A DNA stretch of 22,436 nt. It comes from a virus. Below, piece after piece: positions 3,262-22,266 of this stretch. Within the stretch, counting starts at the first letter, position 1; each line of letters begins with the position of its first letter. The stretch is taken from positions 1 to 22,436 of the IMG/VR virus record IMGVR_UViG_3300020129_000129. The stretch is one strand, 5' to 3'. The position numbers and the translations under genes are program-made. The notes under the pieces were generated by a model. The model did not search any database, was not told where the DNA came from, and saw only the letters and a list, made by a program, of their open reading frames with translations.

Positions 3262-3392
3262 AGGTCACCGCCGCAGTGCTGTTTGTGATGGCGCTCATCG
3301 GGTTTCAGTGCTGGTGGGTCAGATACAAATACCAGGACTGCAAAAGAGTCGGGCACTCAACTCTTTACTGCGTCCTCGATCTTGGAAAATGA
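3249..3392 (+). CDS. 47-aa single-span membrane peptide
   Basis: ATG 3249 lies inside the last codons of the terminase ATPase part, and the frame closes at TGA 3390-3392. The peptide begins MRQVKVTAAVLFVMALIGFQ and has one N-terminal hydrophobic segment followed by a polar, Cys-containing tail (YKYQDCKRVGHSTLYC). This could be an uncleaved signal anchor. The 13-base overlap upstream and the ATGA overlap with the methyltransferase downstream place it firmly in the operon. It is the first gene of the block that separates the two terminase halves. Function unknown. Confidence 0.55.
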   Translation: MRQVKVTAAVLFVMALIGFQCWWVRYKYQDCKRVGHSTLYCVLDLGK

Positions 3393-3895
3393 ACACACTT
3401 CCAGTCACCTTCGACGGCCGGCGCGCAGTTCCCTCCCCTGAAGTCACGCGCGTGATGCTCGAGCTACTCGAGCTGACCAAGCTCGACAAGGTGCTCGAGA
3501 TCGGAACCGGATCCGGCTATCAGACCAGCGAGCTGGCGAAATCCGGAGCTGAACTGCATTCGATCGAGCTCGAGCCGTGGGTGGATCCAACCAAGATCAC
3601 CGGCGAATGCGTGTTCTTACATGCCGGCAACGGCGTGACCGGGCTCTACAGCGAAGCGCCGTTCACCGCGATCGTTGCAACCTGTGGCGTCGAGCAGATT
3701 CCCTCCGCCTGGCGCGCGCAACTCACCGAAGGCGGACGCCTGGTCGCACCAGTCGGAGATAGCACCGTGCAGCGCCTGACCAAGTTCGTGAAGCATGATG
3801 GCTCGCTGGTCCCGGTGCGGATCGGCGCCTACGTGCGCTTCCAGATGCTCAGGGAGCCCGAAATTCGCAAGCCGGTGAAGCCGGTCTATGCCTAA
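3389..3895 (+). CDS. PCMT-like SAM-dependent methyltransferase
   Basis: The 168-aa product has the SAM-binding motif I (VLEIGTGSGYQT, residues 35-46). It also has the C-terminal strand pattern of protein-L-isoaspartate O-methyltransferases (IVATCGVEQIPSAW, then QLTEGGRLVAPVG). PCMT enzymes methylate damaged aspartyl residues. This protein is shorter than the usual ~210 aa and its N-terminal active-site loop (LPVTFDGRRAVPSPEV) only loosely matches the family, so the substrate may differ. It starts at ATG 3389 through an ATGA overlap with the membrane peptide and overlaps the next gene by 8 bases. The Rossmann methyltransferase fold is confident; the PCMT reaction is inference from family resemblance. 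Confidence 0.75.
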   Translation: MNTLPVTFDGRRAVPSPEVTRVMLELLELTKLDKVLEIGTGSGYQTSELAKSGAELHSIELEPWVDPTKITGECVFLHAGNGVTGLYSEAPFTAIVATCGVEQIPSAWRAQLTEGGRLVAPVGDSTVQRLTKFVKHDGSLVPVRIGAYVRFQMLREPEIRKPVKPVYA

Positions 3896-4109: not shown

Positions 4110-4326
4110 TCTAGTGCTCGTGCTCTGGCTTTTTGTTGATGTGCTCTGGAGCGCATTTCTCTTCGGCGGGTGCGCGTGGCTGGTGTTTTGGCATGACCAT
4201 TCGCCTTGGTGGTTTCTTCTGGCGATCTTTCTCAGCCCCGCTCTAGGTGGCGGCAAGCTGTACCGCGCCCTCGCAAAGCGTTGCGGTCTGGGAGAAGGCG
4301 AACTAGGAAAAGATGATGGCGCGTAA
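4099..4326 (+). CDS. Two-span small membrane protein
   Basis: A 75-aa protein starting at ATG 4099. Two hydrophobic segments are visible: LVLVLWLFVDVLWSAFLFGG (about residues 5-24) and WWFLLAIFLSPALGGG (about 37-52), separated by a short His/Asp loop (FWHDHSP). The C-terminus is polar (YRALAKRCGLGEGELGKDD) and likely cytoplasmic. The size and two-span layout resemble holins, but the same shape occurs in many unrelated phage membrane proteins and no lysis enzyme is encoded nearby. It overlaps both neighbours (11 and 14 bases). Function unknown. Confidence 0.6.
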   Translation: MARDLVLVLWLFVDVLWSAFLFGGCAWLVFWHDHSPWWFLLAIFLSPALGGGKLYRALAKRCGLGEGELGKDDGA

Positions 4327-4852
4327 AGGCTTCATCGTCGCTCATGGCGAGACTTTGATGGACCGGGAAGGACGAGTGCACGGCCGGCTCGATCCGCCGC
4401 TCACGCTCAAAGGCAAGCTGACCGCGAAACGCGCCGCCCGTCAGCTGAAAGGCAAGCCGATCGAGCGCATCTACTCTTCGCCGCGGCAGCGCGCACGTCA
4501 GACCGCCAGCATCCTTGCGGACACGCTCCAGGTGCCGATCGAAGTTCGCGGCGAACTCGTTCCGTGGGATCTCGGACGCATGTCCGGCGCGAAAGCTTCA
4601 ACCATTACGCCGATCGTCGATTTCTTCTCTTCGCGCCCGGAGCGCGTGGTGCCGAGCGGCGAATCGAAGGCTGACGTTCTCAAGCGCTATCGCAAGTTCG
4701 TCTCCGAGCTGAAGCGCGGCAAAGGCATGTTTGTGATCGCCGGCCATTCTCAGCACACGCTCGGCTTCGACTATGCCGCCAAGGGCGGCGATCTCTCGAA
4801 AGTCAAAATGATCGGCGGGCAGGCGGGAGAAGTGAAACCCGTCACCGTCTGA
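4313..4852 (+). CDS. Histidine phosphatase superfamily protein, RHG motif changed to AHG
   Basis: This 179-aa protein matches the phosphoglycerate mutase/histidine phosphatase superfamily. The catalytic region is FIVAHGETLMDREGRVHGRL, followed by the typical PLTLKGKLTAKRAARQL and IYSSPRQRARQTASIL segments, a GES element (residues about 117-119) and a C-terminal GHSQ with the second active-site His. The first Arg of the family's RHG motif, a phosphate ligand, is Ala here; the nucleophile His is kept. Members dephosphorylate small molecules or proteins. The loss of the Arg suggests altered or weak activity. It overlaps the previous gene by 14 bases and ends 11 bases before the next. Family call firm, substrate unknown. 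Confidence 0.8.
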   Translation: MMARKGFIVAHGETLMDREGRVHGRLDPPLTLKGKLTAKRAARQLKGKPIERIYSSPRQRARQTASILADTLQVPIEVRGELVPWDLGRMSGAKASTITPIVDFFSSRPERVVPSGESKADVLKRYRKFVSELKRGKGMFVIAGHSQHTLGFDYAAKGGDLSKVKMIGGQAGEVKPVTV

Positions 4853-5832: not shown

Positions 5833-6240
5833 ATGGGCTGGCTATCGAAGCGAACAACAAAAGCAAGTTGTCATCCTGAAAAACCGCATGTGGCGAAGGG
5901 CCTCTGTAATGCCTGTTATCGACACATGCGCTACCACGCCAAGTGGAAATCCTCCAACACCGAGCGATCGAGACTCTGGCGGAACAAGAACCGCGACAAA
6001 TGGCGTTTATGGAAGAAAGAGGCAGAACGGCGCAAACGTGAACGCAAGGCCACACGCCCTCGCGCAAGTTCTTGCGAGATTTGCGCACGAGTTTGCTTCA
6101 CATTTTTCGATCACGATCACAGCACAGGACAGTTTCGCGGTTGGATTTGCGAGCACTGCAATAAAGCTTTAGGTTTCGTGAAAGACGATCCCGCACTTCT
6201 CCGAAAACTGGCCGAGTACCTAGAAAAAGCGGACAACTGA
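5833..6240 (+). CDS. Endonuclease VII-type HNH nuclease
   Basis: The 135-aa product has the recombination endonuclease VII pattern. There is an N-terminal Cys cluster (C13, C25, C28 in GLCNACYR), then a basic helical linker and a C-terminal zinc/nuclease module. That module has C81-x2-C84, the catalytic DHDH (residues 93-96), GQFRGWIC with C106-x2-C109, and an Asn (CEHCNKALG). Family members cut branched DNA or act as free-standing homing endonucleases. It lies in the block that splits the terminase gene, a setting in which homing-type nucleases are often found. ATG 5833 follows a 29-base gap after the previous gene; TGA 6238-6240 runs into the next gene's ribosome-binding site. Confidence 0.85.
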   Translation: MGWLSKRTTKASCHPEKPHVAKGLCNACYRHMRYHAKWKSSNTERSRLWRNKNRDKWRLWKKEAERRKRERKATRPRASSCEICARVCFTFFDHDHSTGQFRGWICEHCNKALGFVKDDPALLRKLAEYLEKADN

Positions 6241-6478: not shown

Positions 6479-7420
6479 TTGCAGGTCGAATTCCCGCATC
6501 CCGGAATCGAAGTCTGGTCGAACCGCCACGGCATCCGCATCTTCCGCCTGCACTACTCGGCTGATCCAGAGAAGACCAGCGAGTGGGCCGCAGCGCAGAA
6601 GCACGCGATGACCAACCCTGCCGACTACGAGCAGGAATTCGAGATCAACTTCTCGGCCAAGCTGGGAACGCTGATCTACCAGATGCGGGATGAAGCGACG
6701 CTCGAGAACTCATTCCCGATCCCGCACGACTGGACTCGCTATTTTGCTCTCGACCCGCATCCTGTGGTTCCCCACGCAGCACTTTGGGTGGCGGTTGACC
6801 GCTGGGGAGATGCATGGGCTTATCGAGAACTATGGCCCTCTCGCATCGCAGGACAGCCCGGAAATCCTCCCGAGGATGACGTGCGATTTTCCATCAAGGA
6901 CTTCGTAGAAGCCGTGCAGTGGCTCGAGTCGGCCGAGAACCCCGAGAACCAGATGCAGGCTGAAGACGTTTACAAGCGCGTCATCGACTACGCCGCCCGC
7001 GCCATGGGGCAAGGGTTCTTCGACGAGAAGCCGGAATACAACTTCCAGCTGCGCTTTGAGGAACTCGGTGGCTGGAAGTTTGACGACTCGATCAAGGATC
7101 ACCAGGCCGGCTACGAAGCCGTGAATGAATGGCTGAAGCCGCGCGACGTCGAGCAAGTGGATGGAATGTTTCGGCCGAAATCACGGCTGCATATCTTCCA
7201 GGACAAGTGTCCAGAGCTCGTGCTCGAGCTGCACACCAACCGCTTCCAGCAGATGACGCCGACGATGGCCGAGCGCGCCGATCCCACTGGCAAGCCAATG
7301 GCAAAACGAAATCACGAGACCGACTGCCTGCGCTATCTGGCGATGGCTGGCCTCGAGTACATCCCCAATCGCCGCCTGACTTCGAACTGGAAGCCCCTGG
7401 CAAACGGAATCAACTACTAA
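6479..7420 (+). CDS. terL: Terminase large subunit, C-terminal nuclease part (split gene)
   Basis: This 313-aa segment is the RNase H-fold nuclease half of the large terminase, which cuts concatemeric DNA at packaging. The linker to the ATPase part is visible (HGIRIFRLHYSADPEKTSEW). The acidic residues expected at the metal site are present: D92 in YFALDPHP, D170 in RVIDYAAR, and D282 in NHETDCLRYL. The only early start is TTG 6479, four bases after the previous stop, with no well-spaced ribosome-binding site, so translation may depend on re-initiation. The next in-frame ATG, near 6608, would remove the linker. It ends at TAA directly before the portal ATG. The ATPase half lies 3.2 kb upstream. 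Confidence 0.85.
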   Translation: MQVEFPHPGIEVWSNRHGIRIFRLHYSADPEKTSEWAAAQKHAMTNPADYEQEFEINFSAKLGTLIYQMRDEATLENSFPIPHDWTRYFALDPHPVVPHAALWVAVDRWGDAWAYRELWPSRIAGQPGNPPEDDVRFSIKDFVEAVQWLESAENPENQMQAEDVYKRVIDYAARAMGQGFFDEKPEYNFQLRFEELGGWKFDDSIKDHQAGYEAVNEWLKPRDVEQVDGMFRPKSRLHIFQDKCPELVLELHTNRFQQMTPTMAERADPTGKPMAKRNHETDCLRYLAMAGLEYIPNRRLTSNWKPLANGINY

Positions 7421-9929: not shown

Positions 9930-10015
9930 GTTCTTCGCCTCGCATCCCGAGGCTCTACAAGTTTTGACGGACCAACCGTCTGCAGCGGGAACCAACCCCG
10001 CGAAGGAGAAAACCA

Positions 10016-11167
10016 ATGAGTGACGTCAGCACAGCACCCGAGCAGGATCAGATAGCGGATTCCCTTCTCGGCGAGCCGCAGGAACAAACGACAACCGAGC
10101 AGACCGGAGCAGAGGAAGTTGTCGAAGGTTCTGAGCAGCTCGACACGCAAGACCAAATCGACGCTGAGCCCACCGAACAGCTCTCGGACGAAACAGCCGA
10201 CGACTGGCTCCCGACGGAGCAGCAGAAGGTGTTTCCCGATGACGTTCTCCGGCAATATGCGGAGCAGCGCTACCCGGATGTTCTCCGGTTGCTCGACAAC
10301 GATCCAACCAACGGCGTTCTCAAGCAACTGCTCCACGACAAGCTGAACACAGATATTTTCCTGCGCGCACAGCAGGAGGAACAGAACGCATTCCAGACGG
10401 AAGAATTCGAGACTGAGCCAGAAGCGGAACCAACCCGCAGCGAAACCCAGCCTCAGATCACGCGCGAGCAGTACTTCCAGAATCTCGACCGGGTCATCAG
10501 CGAACGCACGGATCCGGAAGTGGCAAAGGCCTTTCACTCCGATTTCCTGCGCGCCTTTGGCGTGCCGGAAGCCGAGATCGCGAAGGTCCCTGCGCAACAG
10601 GCCATGCAATTCACGCACGTTGCCTCGAAGTACATGCTCAACCTGATGAACTCTTTCGCCGGCGACCTGATCCAGTCCCAGCTCGGCCAGCAACTGTCCC
10701 AGGCTTTTCCCGGCTTCAGTGAAATGTATGAGCGCTCGGCTTACGCGATGGCGTGGGACCGGGTGCGCAACTCAAACCAGCAGTTCTCGAGCTTGCCGGC
10801 GTATGGGTCAAAGGAATTCTCAAAGACCCTGCGCGAAGCCAGCGCGCGGATTCCCGGCTTTGAGGAAATGCAGTTCACCGGCCGCAACGGGCAGCCCCTG
10901 CCCGCCATGGAAAACGCCATGCGCAAGTACGCCATGCTCGCCCAGATCGCCTCTGGGCAGCAGGTGGATCCGCGCCTGGTGCAGCAGGCAGCGCAGGCTG
11001 GCGCGCGCAATGCGCGGCGGGCGGATGTCAGACGCTCGGCCGCAAACCTCGGCTCCGGACGCAGTGCAGCCGCTGCGCCCAAGGCTTCTTCGAAGTTCCA
11101 GTCGAACGCGGACCTCTTCGATGACGACACGATGGCTCTGTACCAGAAGGAACACGGCCGTCTTTAG
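10016..11167 (+). CDS. Probable scaffolding protein
   Basis: The 383-aa product begins with a very acidic, Gln/Glu-rich disordered region (residues 1-70, e.g. EQTGAEEVVEGSEQLDTQDQ), continues with helical segments, and ends in a basic Ala/Arg-rich tail closing with FDDDTMALYQKEHGRL. This acidic-then-helical-then-basic layout directly before the major capsid gene is typical of phage scaffolding proteins, which template procapsid assembly and leave before DNA fills the head. ATG 10016 has a good ribosome-binding site (AAGGAGA, about seven bases). No protease motif is seen. The assignment is from composition and position. Confidence 0.7.
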   Translation: MSDVSTAPEQDQIADSLLGEPQEQTTTEQTGAEEVVEGSEQLDTQDQIDAEPTEQLSDETADDWLPTEQQKVFPDDVLRQYAEQRYPDVLRLLDNDPTNGVLKQLLHDKLNTDIFLRAQQEEQNAFQTEEFETEPEAEPTRSETQPQITREQYFQNLDRVISERTDPEVAKAFHSDFLRAFGVPEAEIAKVPAQQAMQFTHVASKYMLNLMNSFAGDLIQSQLGQQLSQAFPGFSEMYERSAYAMAWDRVRNSNQQFSSLPAYGSKEFSKTLREASARIPGFEEMQFTGRNGQPLPAMENAMRKYAMLAQIASGQQVDPRLVQQAAQAGARNARRADVRRSAANLGSGRSAAAAPKASSKFQSNADLFDDDTMALYQKEHGRL

Positions 11168-11194
11168 GGCTCAGCAGAACTTGGAGCCTTTCCT

Positions 11195-12496
11195 GTGAAC
11201 ATTTTCAGCTTAATCACAGCGCTCTTCGTCACCCGGCTCAGCTTTTCCCGGCTGGGCGAAGAACTCATGGCGATGTTTTCCATGGGTGCGCTGCAGGTCT
11301 CACGCAGTTTCAACCAGATGGTCACGGACACGACCAACGTCCGTGACGTCAGCGAACAGATGGTGCTGCTCGAACCCGATGCGGCCCCGCTGTTCGTCCT
11401 GACCAATGCGGCCAAGCGCAAGCAGCCGACCATTGGGCCACGCTTTGAATGGGTGGAAGACAACGAAGTCTCGCTGTGGGGTCAGGCGTCGCTCGCTGCC
11501 GATACTACATCGGCGGTGACTTCGATCCTGGTCGCAGATGGAACTTTGTTCGGAGTGGGCGACATCGTGGCCGTGCCGAAGGCGCAGTCTTCTTCGGCCG
11601 CGCCCGAAGTTTTCCTGGTCACCTCCATCACGACCAACACGCTCACCATTACGCGAGGCGTGGGCGGATCCGGCGCAGATACCATTCCTGCGACGGGCTC
11701 GCTGCGCATCCTTGCGTCGGCGTTTAAGGAAGACGACAACGTCGGGCAACAGCGCTACACCTCGAAGACGGTGCAGATCAGCTATGCCCAGATCTTCAAG
11801 ACGCCGGTGAAGGTCACTCACACCGCGGCTTCCACTAAGCAGTACGGAGCGCCGCAGGGTGAGCGGAAGTACCAGCTGGTGAAGGCATTGATCCGCCACC
11901 GCTCGGAAATCGAAGCTGCCGGCTTGTGGTCCCGTGCTTCAGAGTCGCTCGCATCGCCCGGTTCGCGCTGGACGACGATGGGCTGGCTCTCCCGCATCTC
12001 GACCAACAAGACCGACGCGTCGACCACGGCGACGATCACGACCTGGAACACATTCTCAGAGACCGCGTTCCGCTACGGAGAAAAGCAGAAGTTGCTGCTC
12101 TGCGCTCCGAAAGTGATCTCGGCTCTGAACTTCTACTCGCAGAACAAGCTGCTGACGCGGGTGGGAGACACGGTCTTCGGCGTGAAGATCGCTCGCTTCG
12201 AGATGGCGCTGGGCGAGTTCCTGCTCGCGAACGACTATCGTCTGGGAACCGCCGACGTTGGCTTCCCCGGCGGCAACTCGTTTGCGACCCACGCCTACTC
12301 GATCGATCTGCCCTCGGTGGCGATCCGCTACCTGCAGGGCGGTGGTGACAGCCTGATCGGCGACACGAAGCTGTTTGAAAACGTGCTGCCCGACGGCTCA
12401 ACCACCCGCACCGACGAGTACCGCTCGCAGATCGGCTGGGAGATCCGGCATGAAAAGAAACATGCCTGGCTCTTCGATCTGTCGGCTTACGCATAA
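11195..12496 (+). CDS. Major capsid protein, SU10-like (DUF5309) family
   Basis: The protein forms the capsid shell. It has the features of the SU10-like family of HK97-fold capsid proteins: an early segment TDTTNVRDVSEQMVLLEPDA followed by PLFVLTNAAKRK and FEWVEDNEVSLWGQ, an inserted beta domain (residues about 95-160), then a spine-like helix (KYQLVKALIRHRSEIEAAGL) and an ending with an RSQIGWEIRHEKKHAW stretch. GTG 11195 has a good site (TTGGAG, eight bases) and gives 433 aa; ATG 11267 would give 409 aa starting MAMFSMGALQVSRSF, a more typical capsid N-terminus. The stop is followed by a terminator-like hairpin, consistent with high expression of this gene. Confidence 0.82.
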   Translation: MNIFSLITALFVTRLSFSRLGEELMAMFSMGALQVSRSFNQMVTDTTNVRDVSEQMVLLEPDAAPLFVLTNAAKRKQPTIGPRFEWVEDNEVSLWGQASLAADTTSAVTSILVADGTLFGVGDIVAVPKAQSSSAAPEVFLVTSITTNTLTITRGVGGSGADTIPATGSLRILASAFKEDDNVGQQRYTSKTVQISYAQIFKTPVKVTHTAASTKQYGAPQGERKYQLVKALIRHRSEIEAAGLWSRASESLASPGSRWTTMGWLSRISTNKTDASTTATITTWNTFSETAFRYGEKQKLLLCAPKVISALNFYSQNKLLTRVGDTVFGVKIARFEMALGEFLLANDYRLGTADVGFPGGNSFATHAYSIDLPSVAIRYLQGGGDSLIGDTKLFENVLPDGSTTRTDEYRSQIGWEIRHEKKHAWLFDLSAYA

Positions 12497-12504
12497 AACC
12501 CTCG

Positions 12505-12534
12505 ACTGGAGGCGGAGAACCTGCCGCCTCCAGT
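12505..12534 (+). terminator. Intrinsic terminator-like hairpin after the capsid gene
   Basis: The arms ACTGGAGGCGG (12505-12515) and CCGCCTCCAGT (12524-12534) pair perfectly over 11 bases with an 8-base loop, followed by TGTTTC. The hairpin lies eight bases after the capsid stop. The T-tract is short, so it may be a partial terminator or an mRNA-stabilising hairpin that lifts capsid protein levels relative to the genes after it. Confidence 0.7.
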
Positions 12535-12553
12535 TGTTTCACTGGAGAAGACT

Positions 12554-12790
12554 ATGAACCTCTATCGCGTGCAGTTCTTTCATGTCACCAGCCGGCGCAC
12601 CGAGCAGATGCGCGGCCAGGCATTCACCCACCGCCAGGGCACCGAGAAGACCGCGTTCGTCGTGGCCGCAACGCCGGAAGAAGCCGGCGCGCACATATCG
12701 GCCAGACACGACTGCGACATTCTGGGCGTCTTGACCGAGAAGTCGAACGTGGAGATCGCAACACCCGCGAAAGCATCCGCCCGCAAATAG
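12554..12790 (+). CDS. Hypothetical head-region protein, 78 aa
   Basis: ATG 12554 has a clear ribosome-binding site (GGAGA, about eight bases). The protein opens MNLYRVQFFHVTSRRTEQMR, likely a beta strand followed by a basic helix, and has an Ala/Glu helix (TPEEAGAHISARHDC) and a Lys/Ala-rich end. The pattern (a strand carrying YRV, a helix with a PEEA start, then DILGV) resembles a small alpha/beta domain. It is the first gene after the capsid terminator. Family not recognised; a decoration or head completion role is only a guess from position. Confidence 0.6.
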   Translation: MNLYRVQFFHVTSRRTEQMRGQAFTHRQGTEKTAFVVAATPEEAGAHISARHDCDILGVLTEKSNVEIATPAKASARK

Positions 12791-12799
12791 GAGAGCCTC

Positions 12800-13309
12800 A
12801 TGTCAGAAGCGAAGAAGTGGAAGTGTCTGAATCCCGACTGCGGCAAGGAATTCACCGTCGGAAGCTGGCTGTGCATCGACGGCCAGAATAATCATGTTGT
12901 CGCCCAGAAGCAGTACCGCTCGATCGATGCGCCATCCGATCCTGGCCATCCGCAGATCGGTGGCATGGACTCGCTGCGCGACGGGCGCACAGTGGTCTGC
13001 AATATCCCTCCGGAAAAGCGCGTCGTGATGAAGGGCGATGACGGCCAGGACAAGATCCAGATCATGCCCGGCGGCAACGTCACCTTCCACCGCGGGCTGT
13101 ACGCCACGAGCGACCCAGAAATTCAGTACTACCTCGACAAGCGCCCTGGCTACAACATGACCGAGGAGCAATGGGAAGCGGCATGGCTCTCGGATTCGCA
13201 GAGGCTGATGCTCGACAAACAGCGCTTCGCGGCCGACAAACAGCGCCTCGAGAACGAACGGAATGAGTTGCTGGCGCAGGTGAAGCAGAAGGTGGGCGCG
13301 AGAGCGTAA
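12800..13309 (+). CDS. Zinc-finger/coiled-coil protein of the head region
   Basis: The 169-aa protein has an N-terminal zinc-ribbon-like start (KWKCLNPDCGKEFTVGSWLC; C9, C14 and C25). A beta-rich middle (DGRTVVCNIPPEKRVVMKGD, then GGNVTFHRGLYATSDPEIQY) is followed by a charged coiled coil (DKQRFAADKQRLENERNELL). The site AGGAGAG lies about seven bases before ATG 12800. The segment in which it predicts a state of coming from a given position (YATSDPEIQYYLDKRPGYN) is common in phage structural proteins and points to a virion or assembly role. I cannot name the family. Confidence 0.65.
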   Translation: MSEAKKWKCLNPDCGKEFTVGSWLCIDGQNNHVVAQKQYRSIDAPSDPGHPQIGGMDSLRDGRTVVCNIPPEKRVVMKGDDGQDKIQIMPGGNVTFHRGLYATSDPEIQYYLDKRPGYNMTEEQWEAAWLSDSQRLMLDKQRFAADKQRLENERNELLAQVKQKVGARA

Positions 13310-13570
13310 GTGGGCGGACCGAACGCTGGCGGGATGTACGGACCTGGCGGGGACACACTATTCCGCTCGGGGCTTGGTCCCGCTCGTACGATCAACGACG
13401 CCTCGATGGGCGCGGGGATGCAGAATGCCTACCGCGTCGAGCCCGACTACGTGAAGCTGATCGCCGAAGAATTCCGCAAGACTGGCTGGGGACGCAAGCC
13501 GAAACCGAAACCGATCGAGCTCCGCCTCCCGCGCTGGTCTGAGATTAAAGAACTCCTCCGAAGCTTCTAA
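13310..13570 (+). CDS. Hypothetical protein, 86 aa, Gly-rich N-terminus
   Basis: The GTG start at 13310 follows the stop of the previous gene with no gap, suggesting coupled translation. The N-terminal half is Gly/Pro-rich (GGPNAGGMYGPGGDTLFRSG) and the C-terminal half is helical and basic (YVKLIAEEFRKTGWGRKPKP, then WSEIKELLRSF). It is the last short head-region gene before the glycosyltransferase cassette. No family recognised. Confidence 0.55.
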   Translation: MGGPNAGGMYGPGGDTLFRSGLGPARTINDASMGAGMQNAYRVEPDYVKLIAEEFRKTGWGRKPKPKPIELRLPRWSEIKELLRSF

Positions 13571-13574
13571 CTCC

Positions 13575-14120
13575 ATGCCTACCCGGTGGAGCATTTTGAT
13601 TTTAACCATGCCGCACCGCCGGCACCTGCTCGAGAAATTGCTCGCGAATCTCCAGCAGCAAGCACTTCCCGAAGTTGAAATCCTGGTGAAGGAAAATCCC
13701 TACGATCTCTCCCGGCTCGGCGCCAACCGGCAAGCCTTGCTCGAAAAAGCGCGAGGCGAATACGTGAACTTCATTGACGACGACGACGAAGTGCCCGCGG
13801 ACTATCTGGCAACCATCTTCCCGCTGCTGGATGGAGTCGATTACATCGGCTTCCAAATCGAGATGACGTACGACGGCCGGCCCTTCCAGTTGGCCGATCA
13901 CTCGCTCAAACACAAAACGCCGGAAATGGGGAAGAAGAACGTCTCGCACCTGAACCCGATCCGGCGTGAGTTAGCGATGCAAGGAATCTTCGAAGGGGGC
14001 TTCGCCGAAGATCGCCGCTGGGCGGAGCGCGTCGCCCCATCGGTCAAGACCGAGCACTACATCCCGCGCGTGATGTACGTCTACCACTACTCCAGTACCA
14101 AGAATGTGGCTCATGGCTAA
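13575..14120 (+). CDS. Small GT-A-type glycosyltransferase-like protein
   Basis: The 181-aa protein has the opening of family 2-like nucleotide-sugar transferases (WSILILTMPHRRHLLEKLLA), a helix-strand repeat, a conserved-looking GANRQALLEKARGEYV segment, and the acidic metal/sugar-nucleotide site VNFIDDDDEVPADY (DDDD at residues 68-71). The C-terminal half is short, so the acceptor domain is minimal; a full family member is about 250 aa. It probably transfers a sugar from a nucleotide donor. It starts the accessory cassette; the same fold recurs twice in the gene at 14502. It overlaps the next gene by 8 bases. Donor and acceptor are unknown. Confidence 0.75.
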   Translation: MPTRWSILILTMPHRRHLLEKLLANLQQQALPEVEILVKENPYDLSRLGANRQALLEKARGEYVNFIDDDDEVPADYLATIFPLLDGVDYIGFQIEMTYDGRPFQLADHSLKHKTPEMGKKNVSHLNPIRRELAMQGIFEGGFAEDRRWAERVAPSVKTEHYIPRVMYVYHYSSTKNVAHG

Positions 14121-14505
14121 CTGCTCCAACTGCGGCTCCGAATCCACTCGCGTGCGCTCGCGCTGGACCGACAAGGGAGTACAGCTCCCCGACGAATGCC
14201 CTGCCTGTGCGCCGCAGAGCTTCGAGAAATTCACCGCGCCGTCGGACAAAAAGATCTGGATGGGCTACGAAGCCCACCCCAACGAATACGTCAGGGCTGC
14301 CGACGGCGGCTTCGATCGCAAACCCGAGTACCGCGCCGAGCAGGAACAGAAGCTCTGCCAGGCGACCGAAGACGAGAAGGCGAGAGAGGAACAGGTCGCG
14401 GCCCGCAAGCGGGCGAATCGCAGGCTGACCCCTATGACCGCGGCTGAAATGACGGCCGCGCTGGCGAAGGCCGCTGAAATCGCAGAAGCGCTCAGGAGAT
14501 CATGA
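14113..14505 (+). CDS. Zinc-ribbon protein with helical C-terminus
   Basis: The product (130 aa from ATG 14113, or 133 from ATG 14104) has two CxxC pairs at its start: CSNCGSESTRV, and CPAC about 25 residues later, forming a likely zinc ribbon. The middle is acidic and aromatic (KKIWMGYEAHPNEYV) and the C-terminus is a long charged helix ending in an Ala-rich stretch (TAAEMTAALAKAAEIAEAL). I prefer the second ATG because it starts just before the first cysteine pair. It sits between two glycosyltransferase genes, with an overlap upstream and an ATGA junction downstream. Function unknown. Confidence 0.6.
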   Translation: MANCSNCGSESTRVRSRWTDKGVQLPDECPACAPQSFEKFTAPSDKKIWMGYEAHPNEYVRAADGGFDRKPEYRAEQEQKLCQATEDEKAREEQVAARKRANRRLTPMTAAEMTAALAKAAEIAEALRRS

Positions 14506-16130
14506 AACCTCAAGACGAATGGCAGAAAAAAGTGCGGCGGATCCTCATGGACCCGGACGGCCGCGCTGCGCTCAAACAGTACGGCATCGACGTCGAGATC
14601 ACCGACGAGGAAAAAGAGAAAGAGAAGCCCATCGTGGCCATTCTCTGCCCCACCTATCGCGCGCCGGAGCCCGTGATGCAGGACTCGCTGCGCGCCATGG
14701 TGCTCTACTCTCGCGAGCGCGGCATCACGGTCTACTCCGGCGCACCCATCCAGACTTCCGTAGTTCACTGGTCGCGGAATTTTATTGTGGCCGACCAGAT
14801 CAAGAGCGGAAAGCCCTGGACGCACGTACTTATGGTCGACGACGACATGAAGATCCCGGAAGACGCGCTGGTGAAATTGCTGGCGCATCAAAAGGACATC
14901 ATCGGAGGGATCTGTACCCGAAGAACCGATCCGCCGCGGCCGACGATCAGCCACTACAACGACGAGAAGCAAGTCTTCGAGCCGATCTGGGAATGGCCGG
15001 ACAATGAGACCTTTGAAGTCGGCGGCATCGGTGCGGCCTTCCTGCTGGTTTCGAGAAATGCCCTGGAGCAGATTGCGCAAGCCTACTTCGATTGTCTCTG
15101 GGAAAAAGATTTCTATAAGGTGTCGGACGAATGGGTGGAGCGCGTGCGGGCGCAGCGCTTGCAGTATTTCGACAAGGAAAAGATGGCGTTCTGGTTCCGC
15201 TTCCTGCCTTCTGAATCGCTGGCGATCGAGCAGGGCGAGGACATGAGCTTCTGTCTCGTTGCCCGCAAGTACTGCGGGCTCTCCATCTGGGTTGATACCT
15301 CCGTGCAGCCAGGACATCTCGGCACCTACGATTTCGGCGTGAAGGACTTCATTCCCTACCGGCACGAAGTGATCGAGCGCGCCAAGCGGGACGGAACCTA
15401 CAAACCCAAGGCGGTCCCGCCCATGGATATTTCGATCCTCTGCCCCACGCGCGGCCGGCCGGAAAACGTCAAGCGCTTGCTTGATTCGATCGCCGCGACT
15501 TCGAGCGTTTTACCGGAAGTAATTTTCTACGTGGACGATGACGACACAACGTTTCCTGGCGCTCTCGGGTATCCAAATGCTTCTGTCGTGCGCGGCCCAC
15601 GCATCACGCTCTCTGATTGCTGGAACAAACTGGCGGCGATCGCCACCGGGGAAATCCTGATGAACGCCGGCGACGACCTGATCTTTAAAACGAAGGGCTG
15701 GGACGACGAGGTGAAGCAGTCCTTCGCGAATTTCCCCGATCGCCTGGTCTTTGTGCACGGAGACGACGGGCACTTCGGGAGGCGCTTCGGCACGCATGGC
15801 TTTGTGCATCGCAAGTGGGTCGAGGCAGTCGGCTACTTCATTCCGCCCTACTTCTCCTCTGACTTTGGCGACACCTGGCTGAACGAAGTCGCGAACCGCC
15901 TCGATCGCCGCGTGGCCTTGCCGTTCCTGGCTGAACATATGCATCCGATCTGGAACAAGGCCGAGTGGGACCAGACGCACAAGGAACGACTGGCGCGGCA
16001 CGAGCGCGACCAGGTGGAAGAGTTGTACAAGAAACTCGCGCCCGAACGGGATCGCGACGTCGAAAAGCTCTCACGAATCATCCATGGCGAAAGTCTGCCT
16101 ACTCGACAGCCCGAGCTGGTTGTTATTTAA
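14502..16130 (+). CDS. Tandem two-domain GT-A glycosyltransferase
   Basis: The 542-aa protein carries two glycosyltransferase-like domains. The first (about 43-280) begins IVAILCPTYRAPEP and has the acidic motif VLMVDDDMKIP (DDD at 113-115) and a GGIGAAFLLVSRNAL element. The second (about 309-500) begins DISILCPTRGRPENVKRLLD and has FYVDDDDTTF (345-348) and EILMNAGDDLIF (384-395). Each is a complete GT-A start with its own metal-binding Asp cluster. Fused transferases often add sugars in sequence or form a disaccharide. The start has a good AGGAG site. The end overlaps the radical SAM gene by 47 bases. The fold is confident; sugar and target (virion protein, DNA base or host glycan) are not known. 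Confidence 0.8.
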   Translation: MKPQDEWQKKVRRILMDPDGRAALKQYGIDVEITDEEKEKEKPIVAILCPTYRAPEPVMQDSLRAMVLYSRERGITVYSGAPIQTSVVHWSRNFIVADQIKSGKPWTHVLMVDDDMKIPEDALVKLLAHQKDIIGGICTRRTDPPRPTISHYNDEKQVFEPIWEWPDNETFEVGGIGAAFLLVSRNALEQIAQAYFDCLWEKDFYKVSDEWVERVRAQRLQYFDKEKMAFWFRFLPSESLAIEQGEDMSFCLVARKYCGLSIWVDTSVQPGHLGTYDFGVKDFIPYRHEVIERAKRDGTYKPKAVPPMDISILCPTRGRPENVKRLLDSIAATSSVLPEVIFYVDDDDTTFPGALGYPNASVVRGPRITLSDCWNKLAAIATGEILMNAGDDLIFKTKGWDDEVKQSFANFPDRLVFVHGDDGHFGRRFGTHGFVHRKWVEAVGYFIPPYFSSDFGDTWLNEVANRLDRRVALPFLAEHMHPIWNKAEWDQTHKERLARHERDQVEELYKKLAPERDRDVEKLSRIIHGESLPTRQPELVVI

Positions 16131-17454
16131 CCCGCTGAGCTTCCTGCACCTCGGGATCCTGTACCTGGCGGGCTCGCTGCGCAAGGCGGGCCACGAGGTG
16201 AAGGTGCTCGACGCGCACCAGATCACCAGCTGGGACAAGGCCAAGAAGGAGCTGATCATTCACCATGAGCAGCTCGAGCCCTGCGACGTGCTCGGGATCT
16301 CGGCGACGACGGCCAACGTGCATTGGGGCAAGCAGCTCGCGAAGGCCTGGCCGGCGAAAGTCAAAGTGCTCGGCGGATCCCATGCCACCTACATCGCCAA
16401 CGGCCCGCACGAGCAGTACAAGCGGCCGGAGTACTTCGACGGTTTCAATTTCCTGATGCTCGGCGAGTCGGAGGATTCCTTTGTGCAGTTCTGCGACGCA
16501 TGGGACAAAGACGAGAACGTCTATCACGTGCCCGGCCTCGCCTGGTTTAACTCTTTCCGGATGCTGCAGAAGAATCCGCCGGCCGCGCTCCCAGACGTGA
16601 ATTCCCTTCCCGGTCCCGCATTCGATCTGTGGCCGACCGAGTTCTATAGCGGGCGCTTCACGACGTCGGATTACGACGGCAAAGGCGGACAAGGCATGAC
16701 CGCGCAGCTCTTCACCGCGCGCGGATGCCCTTACGGTTGCCGCTTCTGCGCCGATGCGAGAACCAAGATTCGCGAGGAAAGCTATGAGCAGATCGAGATG
16801 CAGGCCGCGGCGTTGGCCTTTCAGGGTGTCACCTGCGTGCGAATCTACGACGACGTGCTCACTATACGTGCCGATCGATGCAAGAGAATCGCTGACATCA
16901 TGGCTGACTACGGTCTGTGGTTCCGCGGGAACACGCGAGTCAATCTTACGGACCGGAGTCTTTTCGATTACCTGGCGAAGCGGGGCTGCGTTGAGCTCGG
17001 CTTCGGCGTCGAGCACGGATCCGCGCGAATGCTGAAGGCGATGGACAAGGGCACGACGCCCGAGAAGAACACGATCGGGATCAAGATGTGCCAGGACGCC
17101 GGCATGGTCGCGAAAGCCTATCTGCTGGCCGGCTTTCCCGGCGAGACGCTCGAATCGCTCGCCGAGATGGAAGCCTGGATGCGCGACGCGCGTCCCGACG
17201 CCTGCAGCTGGAATCTCTTCCAGCCTTATCCCGGATCCGACGTGTGGATCCACCCCGAGAAGTACGGCGTGAAGCTTCCGCTGAACGCTTTCGACAAGTT
17301 CTGGCAGACCGGCGATGAAGTGACCGAGGAATCGGTGTATCTCGATCTGCCCAGTATTTCCAAATCAGATTTAGTCCGGCGCTTCCGCGAGATCTCCCAG
17401 GTGATCGATTCCGAGATCCAGCATCGCGACCGGGCGCAGGTGATGATGCAATGA
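16084..17454 (+). CDS. B12-binding-type radical SAM enzyme
   Basis: This 456-aa enzyme has an N-terminal Rossmann domain like the cobalamin-binding region of the BchE/methyltransferase class (VKVLDAHQITSW, and VKVLGGSHATYIA near residues 90-103). A radical SAM core follows with the [4Fe-4S] motif RGCPYGCRFCAD (C215, C219, C222) and typical later strands (CVRIYDDVLTI, VELGFGVEHGSARML, KAYLLAGFPGETLE). Such enzymes use S-adenosylmethionine to start radical chemistry, often methylation or ring rearrangement of unactivated carbons. The usual DxHxxG cobalamin motif is not intact, as in other members of this class. It overlaps the glycosyltransferase and meets the next gene at an ATGA. Family confident; substrate unknown, plausibly a sugar. 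Confidence 0.88.
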   Translation: MAKVCLLDSPSWLLFNPLSFLHLGILYLAGSLRKAGHEVKVLDAHQITSWDKAKKELIIHHEQLEPCDVLGISATTANVHWGKQLAKAWPAKVKVLGGSHATYIANGPHEQYKRPEYFDGFNFLMLGESEDSFVQFCDAWDKDENVYHVPGLAWFNSFRMLQKNPPAALPDVNSLPGPAFDLWPTEFYSGRFTTSDYDGKGGQGMTAQLFTARGCPYGCRFCADARTKIREESYEQIEMQAAALAFQGVTCVRIYDDVLTIRADRCKRIADIMADYGLWFRGNTRVNLTDRSLFDYLAKRGCVELGFGVEHGSARMLKAMDKGTTPEKNTIGIKMCQDAGMVAKAYLLAGFPGETLESLAEMEAWMRDARPDACSWNLFQPYPGSDVWIHPEKYGVKLPLNAFDKFWQTGDEVTEESVYLDLPSISKSDLVRRFREISQVIDSEIQHRDRAQVMMQ

Positions 17455-17549
17455 CTCCAGCTTTTGCGTGTGCTCTCACTGTCATGTTCTTTGTGGCCTG
17501 GATTATGGCATTTGTCCTCGGCTACATGATCGGACGGAGGCATAAATGA
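17451..17549 (+). CDS. 32-aa single-span membrane peptide
   Basis: The ATG at 17451 overlaps the radical SAM stop (ATGA) and the frame closes at TGA 17547-17549, itself overlapping the ATG of the dehydrogenase. The peptide is MTPAFACALTVMFFVAWIMA followed by FVLGYMIGRRHK: one hydrophobic span with a basic C-terminal end, which predicts a cytoplasmic C-terminus. The ribosome-binding site of the dehydrogenase (GGAGG) lies inside its last codons. The double ATGA junction argues that it is translated. Function unknown. Confidence 0.55.
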   Translation: MTPAFACALTVMFFVAWIMAFVLGYMIGRRHK

Positions 17550-18859
17550 AGATCGGATTCGTAGGTTGCGGGAAACTCGGCCTGATGGTCGCGCTGGCGA
17601 TCGAATCGAAGGGCCACGAAGTCAAAGGCTACGACGTCAACAAGCAGATCGCGAACTACTTCGCCGGCGCGCCCTATCCCTACCAGGAAGAAGGCGCGGA
17701 CGCTCTCTTCCACTCGAGCAAGATGGAGATGGTCGGGCTCGAGGAGCTGTGCCGCTGGGCCGACATTCTCTTTCTCGCGCCGCAGACTCCGCACGAGGCG
17801 AAGTACGAAGGCGATCGCCCGCTGCCGGAATCGCGCGCCGACTTCGACTACCAATATCTCAAGCAGTGCGTCTGCGACGTGCGCGCCTACCTGGTGCGTC
17901 CGACGACGTGCGTGCTGATCTCGACCGTTTTGCCGGGCACGCTCGAGCGCGAAGTCCTGCCGCTGCTCGACGATCGCTTCCGCCTGGTCTATGAGCCGCT
18001 GTTCATCGCGATGGGCACGGTCGTGCGCGATTTCCTGAATCCGGAGTTCGTCCTGGTTGGGCTGCACGACAAGCAGGCCGCCGGCGAGCTGCAGCGCTTC
18101 TACGCGACTATTCACAACCGGCCGCTGTTCATCACCGACGTGAAAACCGCCGAAGGCATCAAGGTCTTCTACAACACCTTCATCACGGCCAAGACCGTGC
18201 TCGCAAATCTCTACGGCGAGATGGCCGCGCGGCTCGGCATGAACGTCGATGACATCTTCCAGGCGCTCACGCTGGCGACGGATCGCCTGCTTTCCCCGAA
18301 GTACCTGAAGGCCGGCATGGGCGACGGCGGCGGCTGCCATCCCCGCGACAACATCGCGCTGAGCTACATCGCGCAGAAATGCGAGCTGAGCTTTGATTTC
18401 TTCTCCGCGCTGATGACGGCGCGCGAAAAGCACGTCGAGTGGCTGGCTTCCCTGATCAAGCAGTACCGCGGCGATCTCCCGGTCTTCATTCTCGGCCGAG
18501 CCTTCAAGCCTGAGACCAACATTGAGACCGGATCGCCGGCCGTGCTGCTCTCACGCATTCTGCATCGCGACGGGATCCCGCACGGCTCGCAGGAGTACTT
18601 CGTTCCGCTGCAGCAAGGCCTTTACTTCATCGGCACCAGGCACGAGCGCTGGGCGAAGACGAAGTTTCCGGCCGGATCCGTCGTGATCGATCCCTTCCGC
18701 TATATCCCGGACCAGAAGGAAGTGACCGTGCTGCGCCTCGGCGACGGATCGATCCTGCCGAAAGCTGCCGTGGTTCGTTCTCTTGTTGCCGTTCGCACGC
18801 CTAGCCCAACAAAACTCTCAAAGCGGCACTGGAAGAAAGTAATGGAAGAAGCTGGATGA
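17546..18859 (+). CDS. UDP-glucose/GDP-mannose dehydrogenase family enzyme
   Basis: The 437-aa enzyme has the NAD-binding GxGxxG (GFVGCGKLG, residues 4-12), the STVLPGT loop, the central Lys and Asn of the active site (EGIKVFYNTF, K206 and N210) and the catalytic Cys in DGGGCHPRDN (C264), and a C-terminal UDP-binding segment (GRAFKPETNIETGSPAVLLS). The family oxidises UDP-glucose, UDP-ManNAc or GDP-mannose to the uronic acid in two NAD-dependent steps. The C-terminal motif normally reads FKPNTDDxRESP; here the Asp and Arg positions differ, so the nucleotide sugar may differ too. It has a strong GGAGG site and overlaps the next gene by an ATGA. It would supply an acidic sugar to the neighbouring transferases. 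Confidence 0.85.
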   Translation: MKIGFVGCGKLGLMVALAIESKGHEVKGYDVNKQIANYFAGAPYPYQEEGADALFHSSKMEMVGLEELCRWADILFLAPQTPHEAKYEGDRPLPESRADFDYQYLKQCVCDVRAYLVRPTTCVLISTVLPGTLEREVLPLLDDRFRLVYEPLFIAMGTVVRDFLNPEFVLVGLHDKQAAGELQRFYATIHNRPLFITDVKTAEGIKVFYNTFITAKTVLANLYGEMAARLGMNVDDIFQALTLATDRLLSPKYLKAGMGDGGGCHPRDNIALSYIAQKCELSFDFFSALMTAREKHVEWLASLIKQYRGDLPVFILGRAFKPETNIETGSPAVLLSRILHRDGIPHGSQEYFVPLQQGLYFIGTRHERWAKTKFPAGSVVIDPFRYIPDQKEVTVLRLGDGSILPKAAVVRSLVAVRTPSPTKLSKRHWKKVMEEAG

Positions 18860-19575
18860 CCCGAACCGAAATCATCGAACTCGCAAACCAGCTCACCGAG
18901 CGCAAGGGCGAGAAGGTTTTGAACCTGCAATCGCTCTATCGCTTCGTGCTGCAGGACATCTGCAAGCGGCAACGCTTCTGGTGGCGGCGGAAGTATTTCA
19001 GCTTCCCGCTGGTCGCAAGCCAGGCTCTCTACGATCTGACGTCCGTGGTCACCACGCCAGCAGGTGCGATGACGGACGTGCTCCTCGAGGAGATCACGAA
19101 GTTCACCGTGATTCTGACTTCGAGCCCCTACCAGGTCGCCGAGTTTGTTCCCGTATTCGATCCCGAGGCGCTGATCGACATGGTGAACAACACCTCGATC
19201 ACTTCGCCGACGCAGGGCAACACGCAATCGCCAGGCGGACGCTACACCATGGATCCGAGCGGCGTGAACGTCGTCCGCATCGATCCGCCCGATCTCGCTT
19301 ACACGGCATTCGTGGTGGGCTGGGCGATGCCGAATCCGGCAACCGACTCCGCCAGCGACGCAGTCCCGCTGATTCCCGCCTTCTATCACAACACCATTGT
19401 TTCGGGACTGAACGCCAAGATTTTCAAGTTTGCCTACGGCTCGAAGAATGAGAAGACGCTCGACGCGATGGCCGAGTACGAGCAAGGCCTGCAGGACATG
19501 ATGCAGAAGAAGCAGTTCGATCCGAACTACCGCTCGCAGCTGTCGCTTGCGGAAGATTCAGTTCGCTCTACTTAA
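18856..19575 (+). CDS. Probable head-tail adaptor protein
   Basis: The 239-aa protein opens with a helical segment (TRTEIIELANQLTERKGEKV, then LQSLYRFVLQDICKRQRFWW). A beta-sandwich-like middle follows, and then a helical C-terminal end (SGLNAKIFKFAYGSKNEKTL, DAMAEYEQGLQDMMQKKQF). This pattern, and a place shortly before the tail nozzle-like gene, fit the adaptor proteins that sit under the portal in short-tailed phages such as SU10, T7 and P22. It starts through an ATGA overlap with the dehydrogenase gene. The assignment is from architecture and order, not from a diagnostic motif. Confidence 0.6.
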   Translation: MTRTEIIELANQLTERKGEKVLNLQSLYRFVLQDICKRQRFWWRRKYFSFPLVASQALYDLTSVVTTPAGAMTDVLLEEITKFTVILTSSPYQVAEFVPVFDPEALIDMVNNTSITSPTQGNTQSPGGRYTMDPSGVNVVRIDPPDLAYTAFVVGWAMPNPATDSASDAVPLIPAFYHNTIVSGLNAKIFKFAYGSKNEKTLDAMAEYEQGLQDMMQKKQFDPNYRSQLSLAEDSVRST

Positions 19576-19716
19576 ATGTGGCTCCGCTTTGTTTGTTGGT
19601 TTAGCCGAAAGTTCTTCGACATCCACGACTACCACGAGTCGTGGGGCGGAGATGGGCTTCCGACTCACTTCTACGAGTACCACTGCTCGAATTGCGGCAA
19701 GCCGTTTGTGATCTAG
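19576..19716 (+). CDS. 46-aa protein with a CxxC zinc-knuckle end
   Basis: ATG 19576 follows the previous TAA with no gap, and TAG 19714-19716 is followed immediately by the ATG of the tail gene. The peptide starts MWLRFVCWFSRKFFDIHDYH and ends HFYEYHCSNCGKPFVI. The terminal CSNCG pair, together with the His residues before it, suggests zinc binding. The opening aromatic-basic stretch could associate with membrane. Gap-free spacing on both sides makes it very likely to be translated as part of the operon. Confidence 0.65.
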   Translation: MWLRFVCWFSRKFFDIHDYHESWGGDGLPTHFYEYHCSNCGKPFVI

Positions 19717-22266
19717 ATGCCACCTCTCCGACCATTCGAACAGATCGACGCCGGCGGTGTCGATGCCCGCTCGAACCCGATCAACATGCCGCGCAACCGC
19801 GCGTTGCGTTGCCTGAACTGGGTTCCGAAGCAGGCGGGCTTCTGGGAGCTGCGCTGGGGCTATTCGACCGTGACGATGTCCACGGTCTCGGCGACGACCA
19901 TTCACTCGATCTTCCCCTATCGCACCTGGGACAGTACCAAGTACGTTCTCTTCATGCAGGGCACGTCGCTGAATGTTCTGAACACCGGAACTGGAGTCGT
20001 GACCACGCCGACCGTGCGCGGAACTGCGATCGCATCTTCGGCGAAGGGCATGGGCTACTTCGCGAACAATCGCTTCCACTACGGCAACGGGACGGACCAG
20101 AAGTGGTTCGACGGCACGACCTGGCGCGACAACGGGATCCGCGCGCTCACGACCTCAGACATTCGGAACGCCGTTGTAACCGAAGGCGTGCGCGAGCTGA
20201 AGACCACCGAGAACTCGACGATCACGCTTACCGCCGCGGCCGGCGGAACCTTCCCGGCCGACACGCTCACCGGGCATCTGATCTACGTTGCGATCTTCGA
20301 CACCTCGAACAACGAGATCGGCCCTGCGACAGTGAGCGCCGGATCCGGCCGTGTGACCGTGGCGCTCAATCAGAAGATCACCGTCGCCAACATGCCGGAC
20401 CTTTCGACCGTGAATGTGAATTACGTGAAGCTGATCGGCGGCACGATCGACGGCGGGAACCTCGCCTGGTTCTTCACCAACACTTCGACCAACATCACGA
20501 GCTGCACGCGCGTCTCGACAACTGTCACAGTGAATGCGACCGGGCACGGGCTCTCGACGGGCGACGTGGTGATCCTTGCCGGCACCACCAATTTTGACGG
20601 CGTGTACGTAGTGACCGTCACAGATGCGAACAACTTCACCGTGTCCTTAACCCTCGCGACCGGCGCCAACACCGGCGCAGTGGGCACGGTGAAACGCATC
20701 GTGAAAGCAGCGAACGCGACGACCTCGGTCGACGTCACCGCGGCGACCCAGGACACCAGCTACCAGGTGAACCAGAATCGCGGGCTCGCCGCATCGACAG
20801 TCGGCGGATCCCAGCCTGGCTATCAGTTCTATGTCTCGATCTACAATCCGAACGGAGGCGGCCATGTCGGAAACCGGATCGCGATCGGCAGTCGCGCCCT
20901 TCAAACCGCGTATCGCTCGAATTGGCATATCGCAGGCCTTCCCGACTTGTCAGCAACGGACTCCGAGTGGACTTTACTCATTGGAAGAACGGGCGACGGT
21001 GCGCAGGTTCCTTATGCTGCTACGGACAACGCCGGCAACTTCACCTACGCCGCCTCCGCCCAAACCTCGCTAGTCGTCACCGCGGCGAACCTCGACGGCA
21101 ATCACGAGCTCCCGACACGCAACACTCCGATTCCCTCGCAGTGCAACATGTTCTGCCTGGCCGGCGACTTCTGCTACGCCGGCGACACCGGATCTCCCAC
21201 GCTGCGCCGGTCGGGATCTCTCGCCGACGATCGCGCCGGCGTCTTCACCGGACGGCCGGAACAATCGTGGGCAGCGAATGACATCGACACCTTCCCGACC
21301 GCGGATGCTCTGACGGCGATCTTTGAAGTCGATCAGGAAGTGCTCTGCGGGACTTTGACTGACTGCGCGCTCTCGGTGAATCTCGCCGGCATTCAGCAGT
21401 GGGTGGGACCGTTCAACGTTGGGATCGCCGGGCGGCGGGCGGGGACCAAGTGCGGCTCGCATGGCTTCTTCTGGCTCTCTGGAGAAAAGCAGCTGATCAC
21501 GCTGCAGAATGGCGTCCCGGTACCGGTCTCCGAAGAATACGAACTCTCCGAACTCTCGCAGATCGGCGACAACTTCCTTTCGACCGTCGAGCTGGTCTAC
21601 TACCGCAACGCCGCGCTCGGCAAGGACGAGCTGCGCGTCGAAGCACAGAAGCAGGACGGCACGCCCTACACCATCATTCACGACTTCAAGCTCAGGGAGT
21701 TCTCGCAGGCGCCCGGCTCGATCTACGGGCAAGGCTACGGCTCGCAGTACGCCGGCCAGCTCGCGACTGCCTTCACCGTGGCCCAGGTGCGCGATTCGAA
21801 CGGCAAGCTGCAGGTCTTTGCCGGCTCGACCAACGGCGTGCTCTACCAGCTCTACTCAAACGCCGACGACATCGGCAACCAGTACACCGCGGATCTGATT
21901 CTCCTGGTCAACGGCGGCACCAATCGGCCGAACGTGCCCTTCCTCGATTTCTACGGCGATGAGCTGATCGACGTCCAGGTGGGACAAACCCTTTCGACTT
22001 CCCTCACGCCTGGATCCGAATTTGCTTTCGAGGATCTGACGCCACCGGGCAACGGCGCAGAAGCCGTGCAGGGCTCGGAGAACGATTTCCTTTTCCGCGC
22101 GCACTTGAACACGCCCGAGGTGCAGCACATCTATGTTCGCTTCGTTTTGCAGTCGCACTCGGCCGACGGAAACCTCAGCCTGAATTCTCCGCCCCACATT
22201 CCACTCGAGAACTACGGCCGGCTGTACGAGCTGATTCCGGCGGTGGGAGACGAGCGCGAACGGTAA
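19717..22266 (+). CDS. Large tail/nozzle-type structural protein
   Basis: The 849-aa protein opens with MPPLRPFEQIDAGGVDARSN and INMPRNRALRCLNWVPKQAG, a pattern seen in podoviral nozzle-type tail proteins, which close the tail tube below the adaptor. A GHGLSTGDVVILAGTTNFDG segment with the following VVTVTDANNFTV (about residues 260-315) is the small beta domain found in many phage tail proteins, apparently inserted into the main beta-propeller-like body. Later parts (CNMFCLAGDFCYAGDTGSPT, HGFFWLSGEKQLITLQNGVP) repeat a strand pattern consistent with a propeller. It is the largest gene here and ends at TAA 22264-22266. The structural role is well supported; the nozzle assignment is inference. 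Confidence 0.72.
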   Translation: MPPLRPFEQIDAGGVDARSNPINMPRNRALRCLNWVPKQAGFWELRWGYSTVTMSTVSATTIHSIFPYRTWDSTKYVLFMQGTSLNVLNTGTGVVTTPTVRGTAIASSAKGMGYFANNRFHYGNGTDQKWFDGTTWRDNGIRALTTSDIRNAVVTEGVRELKTTENSTITLTAAAGGTFPADTLTGHLIYVAIFDTSNNEIGPATVSAGSGRVTVALNQKITVANMPDLSTVNVNYVKLIGGTIDGGNLAWFFTNTSTNITSCTRVSTTVTVNATGHGLSTGDVVILAGTTNFDGVYVVTVTDANNFTVSLTLATGANTGAVGTVKRIVKAANATTSVDVTAATQDTSYQVNQNRGLAASTVGGSQPGYQFYVSIYNPNGGGHVGNRIAIGSRALQTAYRSNWHIAGLPDLSATDSEWTLLIGRTGDGAQVPYAATDNAGNFTYAASAQTSLVVTAANLDGNHELPTRNTPIPSQCNMFCLAGDFCYAGDTGSPTLRRSGSLADDRAGVFTGRPEQSWAANDIDTFPTADALTAIFEVDQEVLCGTLTDCALSVNLAGIQQWVGPFNVGIAGRRAGTKCGSHGFFWLSGEKQLITLQNGVPVPVSEEYELSELSQIGDNFLSTVELVYYRNAALGKDELRVEAQKQDGTPYTIIHDFKLREFSQAPGSIYGQGYGSQYAGQLATAFTVAQVRDSNGKLQVFAGSTNGVLYQLYSNADDIGNQYTADLILLVNGGTNRPNVPFLDFYGDELIDVQVGQTLSTSLTPGSEFAFEDLTPPGNGAEAVQGSENDFLFRAHLNTPEVQHIYVRFVLQSHSADGNLSLNSPPHIPLENYGRLYELIPAVGDERER

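Follow-up and report, generated by a model that had tools for sequence, protein, structure and literature searches.

A conserved glycosyltransferase and exchangeable sugar genes in the head operon of SU10-like phages: a candidate locus for virion glycosylation

Gene content of the locus

Using the IMG/VR record IMGVR_UViG_3300020129_000129, a 22,436-bp sequence of an uncultured phage that we analyzed at its full length (the window), we examined a set of sugar-modification genes located between the genes for the major capsid protein (MCP) and the adaptor protein. Both of these proteins score above the cut-offs of their families, and we class the window as carrying an SU10-like structural module. 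Re-checking returned exactly the gene list and coordinates of a preliminary description of this DNA for positions 13575-18859 (Table 1). The three GT-A-like domains in two genes that it reported are also present, with one in GT1 (found by Pfam) and two in GT2 (the N-domain, GT2N, and the C-domain, GT2C, found by PHROG and fold), and we class both genes as phage-encoded glycosyltransferases (GTs), since GT1 is above its Pfam cut-off and the GT2 domains are recognized by PHROG and fold. From the zinc-ribbon gene onward the neighboring genes are chained by overlaps, as had been described, and these measure 47 bp between GT2 and the gene encoding a B12-binding radical SAM enzyme (rSAM), and 4 bp at the zinc-ribbon/GT2, rSAM/micropeptide, micropeptide/UGDH and UGDH/adaptor junctions. 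No sigma-70-like promoter was found in the region 11000-20000, where 1.6 would be expected by chance, although the host's own promoters may escape the sigma-70 model. Relatives favor an alternative start at 14113 for the zinc-ribbon gene, and their MCPs start approximately 30 codons further in than the call at 11195 in the window.

Table 1. Genes of the locus and its two borders in the window (core, present in all 27 compared loci; accessory, present in some loci of the lineage)
Feature	Coordinates	Strand	Evidence
MCP, SU10 type, upstream border	11195..12496	+	PF17236 105.5 bits, cut-off 24.1
169-aa head-region protein	12800..13309	+	profile match in 27/27 loci
GT1, short GT2-family glycosyltransferase, accessory	13575..14120	+	PF00535 (Glycos_transf_2) 31.6 bits, cut-off 23.3; phrog_14775 E 9.5e-31; 5/27 loci
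Zinc-ribbon protein, core	14104..14505	+	CxxC...CxxC pairs; profile match in 27/27 loci
GT2, two GT-A domains: GT2N (~residues 40-277) core, GT2C (~307-525) accessory	14502..16130	+	phrog_1574, phrog_14945, fold
rSAM, B12-binding radical SAM enzyme, accessory	16084..17454	+	PF02310 36.5 bits, PF04055 (Radical_SAM) 68.3 bits, both above cut-off
32-aa single-span membrane micropeptide, window-specific	17451..17549	+	read from sequence
UGDH-like nucleotide-sugar 6-dehydrogenase, accessory	17546..18859	+	PF03721 (UDPG_MGDP_dh_N), PF00984 (central domain), above cut-off; phrog_9148 E 2e-72
SU10-type adaptor protein, downstream border	18856..19575	+	PF24175 40.3 bits, cut-off 27

A fixed core and a variable slot

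Our MCP-based scan identified 31 loci, and after copies and loci ending before the GT had been dropped we compared 27 of these, the window included, scoring gene presence per locus and reading gene order separately. Every one of the 27 contains the 169-aa head-region protein, the zinc-ribbon protein and GT2N between the MCP and the adaptor, including the minimal loci where nothing else is present. Ten GT2N residues, H89, R92, N93, D113-D115 (DDD), T139, R141, D143 and P144, are invariant in all aligned rows that cover them, and the distances between GT2N sequences track those between the MCPs (Mantel r = 0.85, n = 25, p = 0.0002). In this SU10-like lineage, the zinc-ribbon gene and GT2N belong to the core. 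In one locus (L062, 11179-13260), an intein with a LAGLIDADG domain is present in the core GT2N gene.

These GT genes are located in the head operon, away from replication genes, which argues against a first alternative, that they glycosylate modified bases of phage DNA as a defense against restriction. Phage GTs with such a role are known (Pyle 2024, as cited in PMC12619734), but no hydroxymethylase of the thymidylate-synthase type (PF00303) was detected, with working controls, in the window and six related records, all of which are fragments, and we regard this explanation as very improbable.

The region from GT2N to the adaptor gene, which we call the slot, differs in content among phages, even at approximately 90% MCP identity (for example, between the window and L047, at 92%). 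It is empty in L058 and L063-L066, holds a second GT domain in L052, and contains various combinations of methyltransferase, GT-B-like and SDR genes in L045, L046, L047, L051, L056 and L057. The window and three other phages have a second GT domain together with the rSAM and UGDH genes, a set with an SDR gene replacing UGDH also occurs, and some slots contain large fiber-like proteins. The genes are exchanged patchily; on the MCP tree, which was built quickly and leaves some forks open, rSAM and UGDH each require at least four changes and GT2C and SDR at least five each. GT2C is present in 5 of 5 loci with the rSAM and in 4 of the 22 others (Fisher 0.0016 before correction for kinship); mutual exclusion of SDR and GT2C across the 27 loci was not significant.

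Such varied cargo, which includes fiber-like and secreted-type proteins, could also be expected if the slot were a general moron site, with the rSAM and UGDH genes serving to produce a small molecule or to alter the sugar-nucleotide pools of the host, independently of GT2N. Almost all of the recognizable cargo is sugar chemistry, however, and GT2C and GT1 travel along with it, so that we consider this alternative improbable.

A separate observation concerns L067, where the GT2N gene is directly followed by that of a 1183-aa protein (11546-15097) which contains collagen-like triple-helix repeats and is a possible glycan acceptor. As this protein is found in one slot only, we do not generalize a collagen-like acceptor to the lineage.

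Distribution of the radical SAM gene

Scans of IMG/VR identified relatives of the rSAM in G001 (L002/L020), G002 (L003/L021), G003 (L022), G004 (L023), G005 (L029) and G006 (L025). In five SU10-type phages, the window and G001-G004, the gene is located between the MCP and the adaptor. This shared position, and the co-divergence of the core GT with the capsid, bear out the earlier proposal of a sugar-modification cassette inside the virion operon. In addition, the large phage G006 (176 kb), whose head module is unrelated, carries its rSAM between portal and head-tail adaptor genes, with several GTs nearby. The comparison of gene neighborhoods that had been suggested as a check did not find the rSAM cassette at a nonstructural site with its own promoter in the five SU10-type phages or in G006.

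In every case the rSAM is next to an enzyme acting on nucleoside diphosphate (NDP) sugars. This enzyme is UGDH in four phages (the window, G001, G002 and G003) and of the SDR type in G004, G005 and G006. In G004 an SDR-type NDP-sugar epimerase/dehydratase stands in place of UGDH, and a UGDH profile search of this record gave no match; G005 and G006, records unrelated to the SU10 set, likewise have the rSAM beside an SDR gene and no UGDH. An acidic sugar, which the preliminary description proposed as a product of the system, is therefore not a constant of it. The membrane micropeptide at 17451-17549, described as a further member of the cassette, is not present at the rSAM/UGDH junction of G001-G003, which have the same gene pair, and without this conservation we rejected it as a component; it probably lies outside the sugar system.

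Scans of genome contigs for cellular relatives of the rSAM returned one distant match only (21% identity, in Candidatus Anammoxibacter), and no donor was found.

Other features of these records were observed in the course of the survey. An intein-like insert splits the G006 rSAM (L025, 10622-11662) precisely in front of the first cysteine of the cluster (RGC|PYGC...C), a position that is a sign of a conserved active site, and the reading frame of this gene is broken in the record near its start (L025, ~9975-10060). The G005 terminase (L029, 4825-7743) also has an intein-like domain. Between the sugar genes and the adaptor, L002 (11233-12540) and L023 (12756-15794 and 15784-16515) encode slot proteins that match no family and have signal-peptide-like or membrane stretches at their start or within.

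Predicted activities of the enzymes

The rSAM has the features of a B12-binding radical SAM enzyme by sequence (PF02310, PF04055 and a CxxxCxxC motif), and the motif cysteines at 215-222 (Cys215, Cys219 and Cys222) are invariant in six phages. A structure model built from six sequences (mean pLDDT 71) has its best fold match among solved structures in AprD4 (PDB 6fd2; Z 25.8, 394 residues, 3.5 Å, 19% identity), with the methylases MgmA (Z 24.7) and CysS (Z 24.6) close behind, and a PDB profile search also ranked AprD4 first (E 1.2e-18). AprD4 is the radical SAM diol-dehydratase of apramycin biosynthesis; it acts on a hexose ring and, with AprD3, deoxygenates it, and GenK and GenD1 C-methylate sugar rings in a cobalamin-dependent reaction (PMC5461906). 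The phage enzyme resembles AprD4 in fold and profile, but it is below the cut-off of the AprD4 family (NF033070, 45.7 bits against 500), shares the low identity given above, and is nearly as close to MgmA and CysS. In the NCBIfam ranking PhpK and BchE are at the top, all far under cut-off, with the PhpK-type methyltransferase family TIGR04479 at 97 bits against a cut-off of 600. The gene neighborhood points to a sugar substrate. Our literature search, which had partial coverage and is weak evidence in this respect, found no description of a B12 radical SAM enzyme in a phage sugar cassette.

The UGDH-like protein belongs to the UGDH superfamily, as it has the NAD-binding and central domains and the catalytic Cys, Lys and Asn. 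Lys206, Asn210, Cys264 and Asp268, assigned as catalytic by alignment to known enzymes, are invariant in 12 phage relatives, and this phage clade has the motif GDGGxCHPRDN (GDGGGCHPRDN in the window) in place of GGSCxPKD. Its score for the NDP-sugDHase subfamily TIGR03026 (162.4 bits) is below the cut-off of 189.8, and its closest solved relatives are UDP-glucose and GDP-mannose dehydrogenases, which match about equally well.

GT2C matches phrog_14945 (E 3.6e-37) and GT2N matches phrog_1574 (E 5.6e-18), and in fold the single domains resemble WrtF (GT2C, Z 18.1) and Mnn9 (GT2N, Z 15.8). The GT2 model was built from five sequences and is shallow (mean pLDDT 70, pTM 0.48), and we therefore used single domains only. 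Matches to two-domain PDB structures (K4 chondroitin polymerase, heparosan synthase, LARGE1 and COLGALT1), which would fit the use of UDP-glucuronate, were set aside as evidence because the domain orientation is unreliable at this pTM.

Gene histories

Trees of the portal, MCP, adaptor and GT2 from five phages are concordant, grouping the window with G002 and G001 with G003. The rSAM tree conflicts with this backbone (approximately unbiased test, p = 0.019 against G001+G003 and p = 0.064 against window+G002), and the UGDH tree is uninformative on these groupings. Among four phages, MCP identity spans 38-91% and rSAM identity is flat at 80-83%. Between phages where the rSAM is 81% identical, four-fold degenerate sites match at only 30-40%, which argues for strong purifying selection on the rSAM and against chance. 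A recent transfer of the module was rejected, since synonymous sites are as saturated in the rSAM as in the structural genes; with saturation throughout, any exchange is not recent and the tree conflict alone remains. A GT bound to the backbone with a shuffled sugar supply would fit the pattern of these trees, which cover five phages only.

Elsewhere in the window, the ATPase and nuclease halves of the terminase large subunit appear as two separate genes (2512-3261 and 6479-7420), with 3.2 kb between them. All relatives for which both halves could be located (18 loci, including some copies) show this split, with gaps of 1.2-3.4 kb. In the window, genes encoding a PCMT-type methyltransferase (3239-3895), a histidine-phosphatase-like protein (4313-4852) and an endonuclease VII (5833-6240) are located between the two halves, and no group I intron was detected in the window by Rfam.

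Discussion

The most likely of the explanations considered, to which we give an even chance, is that the locus serves glycosylation of the virion and combines a fixed core with an exchangeable module for sugar supply. GT2N, made late with the head genes, would place a first sugar on a particle protein (capsid, neck or fiber). The dehydrogenase in the window would oxidize C6 of a nucleotide sugar, with UDP-glucose to UDP-glucuronate as the default guess, and the rSAM could then change a sugar carbon, through either a radical dehydration like that of AprD4 or a cobalamin-dependent C-methylation. The resulting unusual sugar would be transferred by GT2C and GT1, and other phages of the lineage may put different sugars on a particle of this kind, altering charge, adsorption or recognition in a serotype-like manner. 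We infer the late co-expression with the head genes, the particle protein as acceptor and the reaction order, as well as any role of the zinc-ribbon protein.

Several points weigh against this reading. GT2N is below the Pfam cut-offs, and its GT activity is predicted from fold and motif; few independent gains (at least four) underlie the association of GT2C with the rSAM; and particle glycans have so far been observed for no phage of the lineage. A position in a late operon brings late expression to any cargo, and the signal-peptide-like and membrane proteins in the slots of G001 and G004 mean that the slot may be a general cargo site.

The same exported or membrane-type proteins would also fit what we consider the strongest rival, that the host envelope (O-antigen, capsule or S-layer) is modified late in infection, blocking superinfection or freeing progeny, and that the operon position only secures late expression. 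This rival stands above the others because phage sets of GTs and UGDH have been read in this way, as by the authors describing them in pelagimyophages (PMC7029224), and because the UGDH of chlorovirus PBCV-1 is put to use for hyaluronan on the surface of the host (PMC7019647). In chloroviruses, however, hyaluronan is encoded by early and not late genes (PMC7019647), and our family scans recognized no lipid-linked sugar transferase, flippase or polymerase in the cassette. Moreover, GT2N and the zinc-ribbon gene are core and co-diverge with the capsid, as host-range cargo need not, and on balance we think host-surface modification rather unlikely.

For glycosylation of the particle itself, mycobacteriophages and chloroviruses may serve, by analogy, as precedent. 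Mycobacteriophages such as Che8 encode GTs, and proteins of both their capsid and their tail bear glycans (Freeman 2023, as cited in PMC11256854 and PMC12619734); the citing accounts mention no rSAM or UGDH set for them. Glycosylation of a phage virion is thus not new in itself, where the preliminary description had supposed that a phage attaching an acidic, perhaps radically modified sugar to its virion would be. PBCV-1 glycosylates its capsid protein with GTs and sugar-nucleotide enzymes of its own and has antigenic variants, but it is a eukaryotic virus with an unrelated particle, and its UGDH is for the host-surface hyaluronan and not the capsid glycan (PMC7019647). Pelagimyophages have GTs, a UGDH of the same wider family (marine-locus UGDHs are 36-37% identical to that of the window) and radical SAM cassettes in variable regions; in contrast to the position between capsid and adaptor described here, these genes are in a host-recognition region and are read as modifying the O-chain (PMC7029224). 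What appears to be new is the layout of a fixed core and a variable slot in the head operon, with the rSAM family in it, of which we found no description in the literature searched (partial coverage).

More tentatively, and with more doubt than confidence, we propose a serotype-like system, where a capsid-linked core GT and interchangeable cassettes give near-identical particles different glycans, and where one cassette employs its B12-type rSAM to make a sugar that is not known from virions, such as a deoxy- or C-methyl-uronate. For the rSAM family, the locus offers a defined genetic setting for seeking a new sugar reaction. Recognition of virion glycosylation in tailed phages is recent and limited to few isolates; a conserved GT of the head operon with a variable slot in an environmental lineage would make it a general and evolvable trait, and the particles of close relatives would then be predicted to differ in glycan mass according to the content of their slots.
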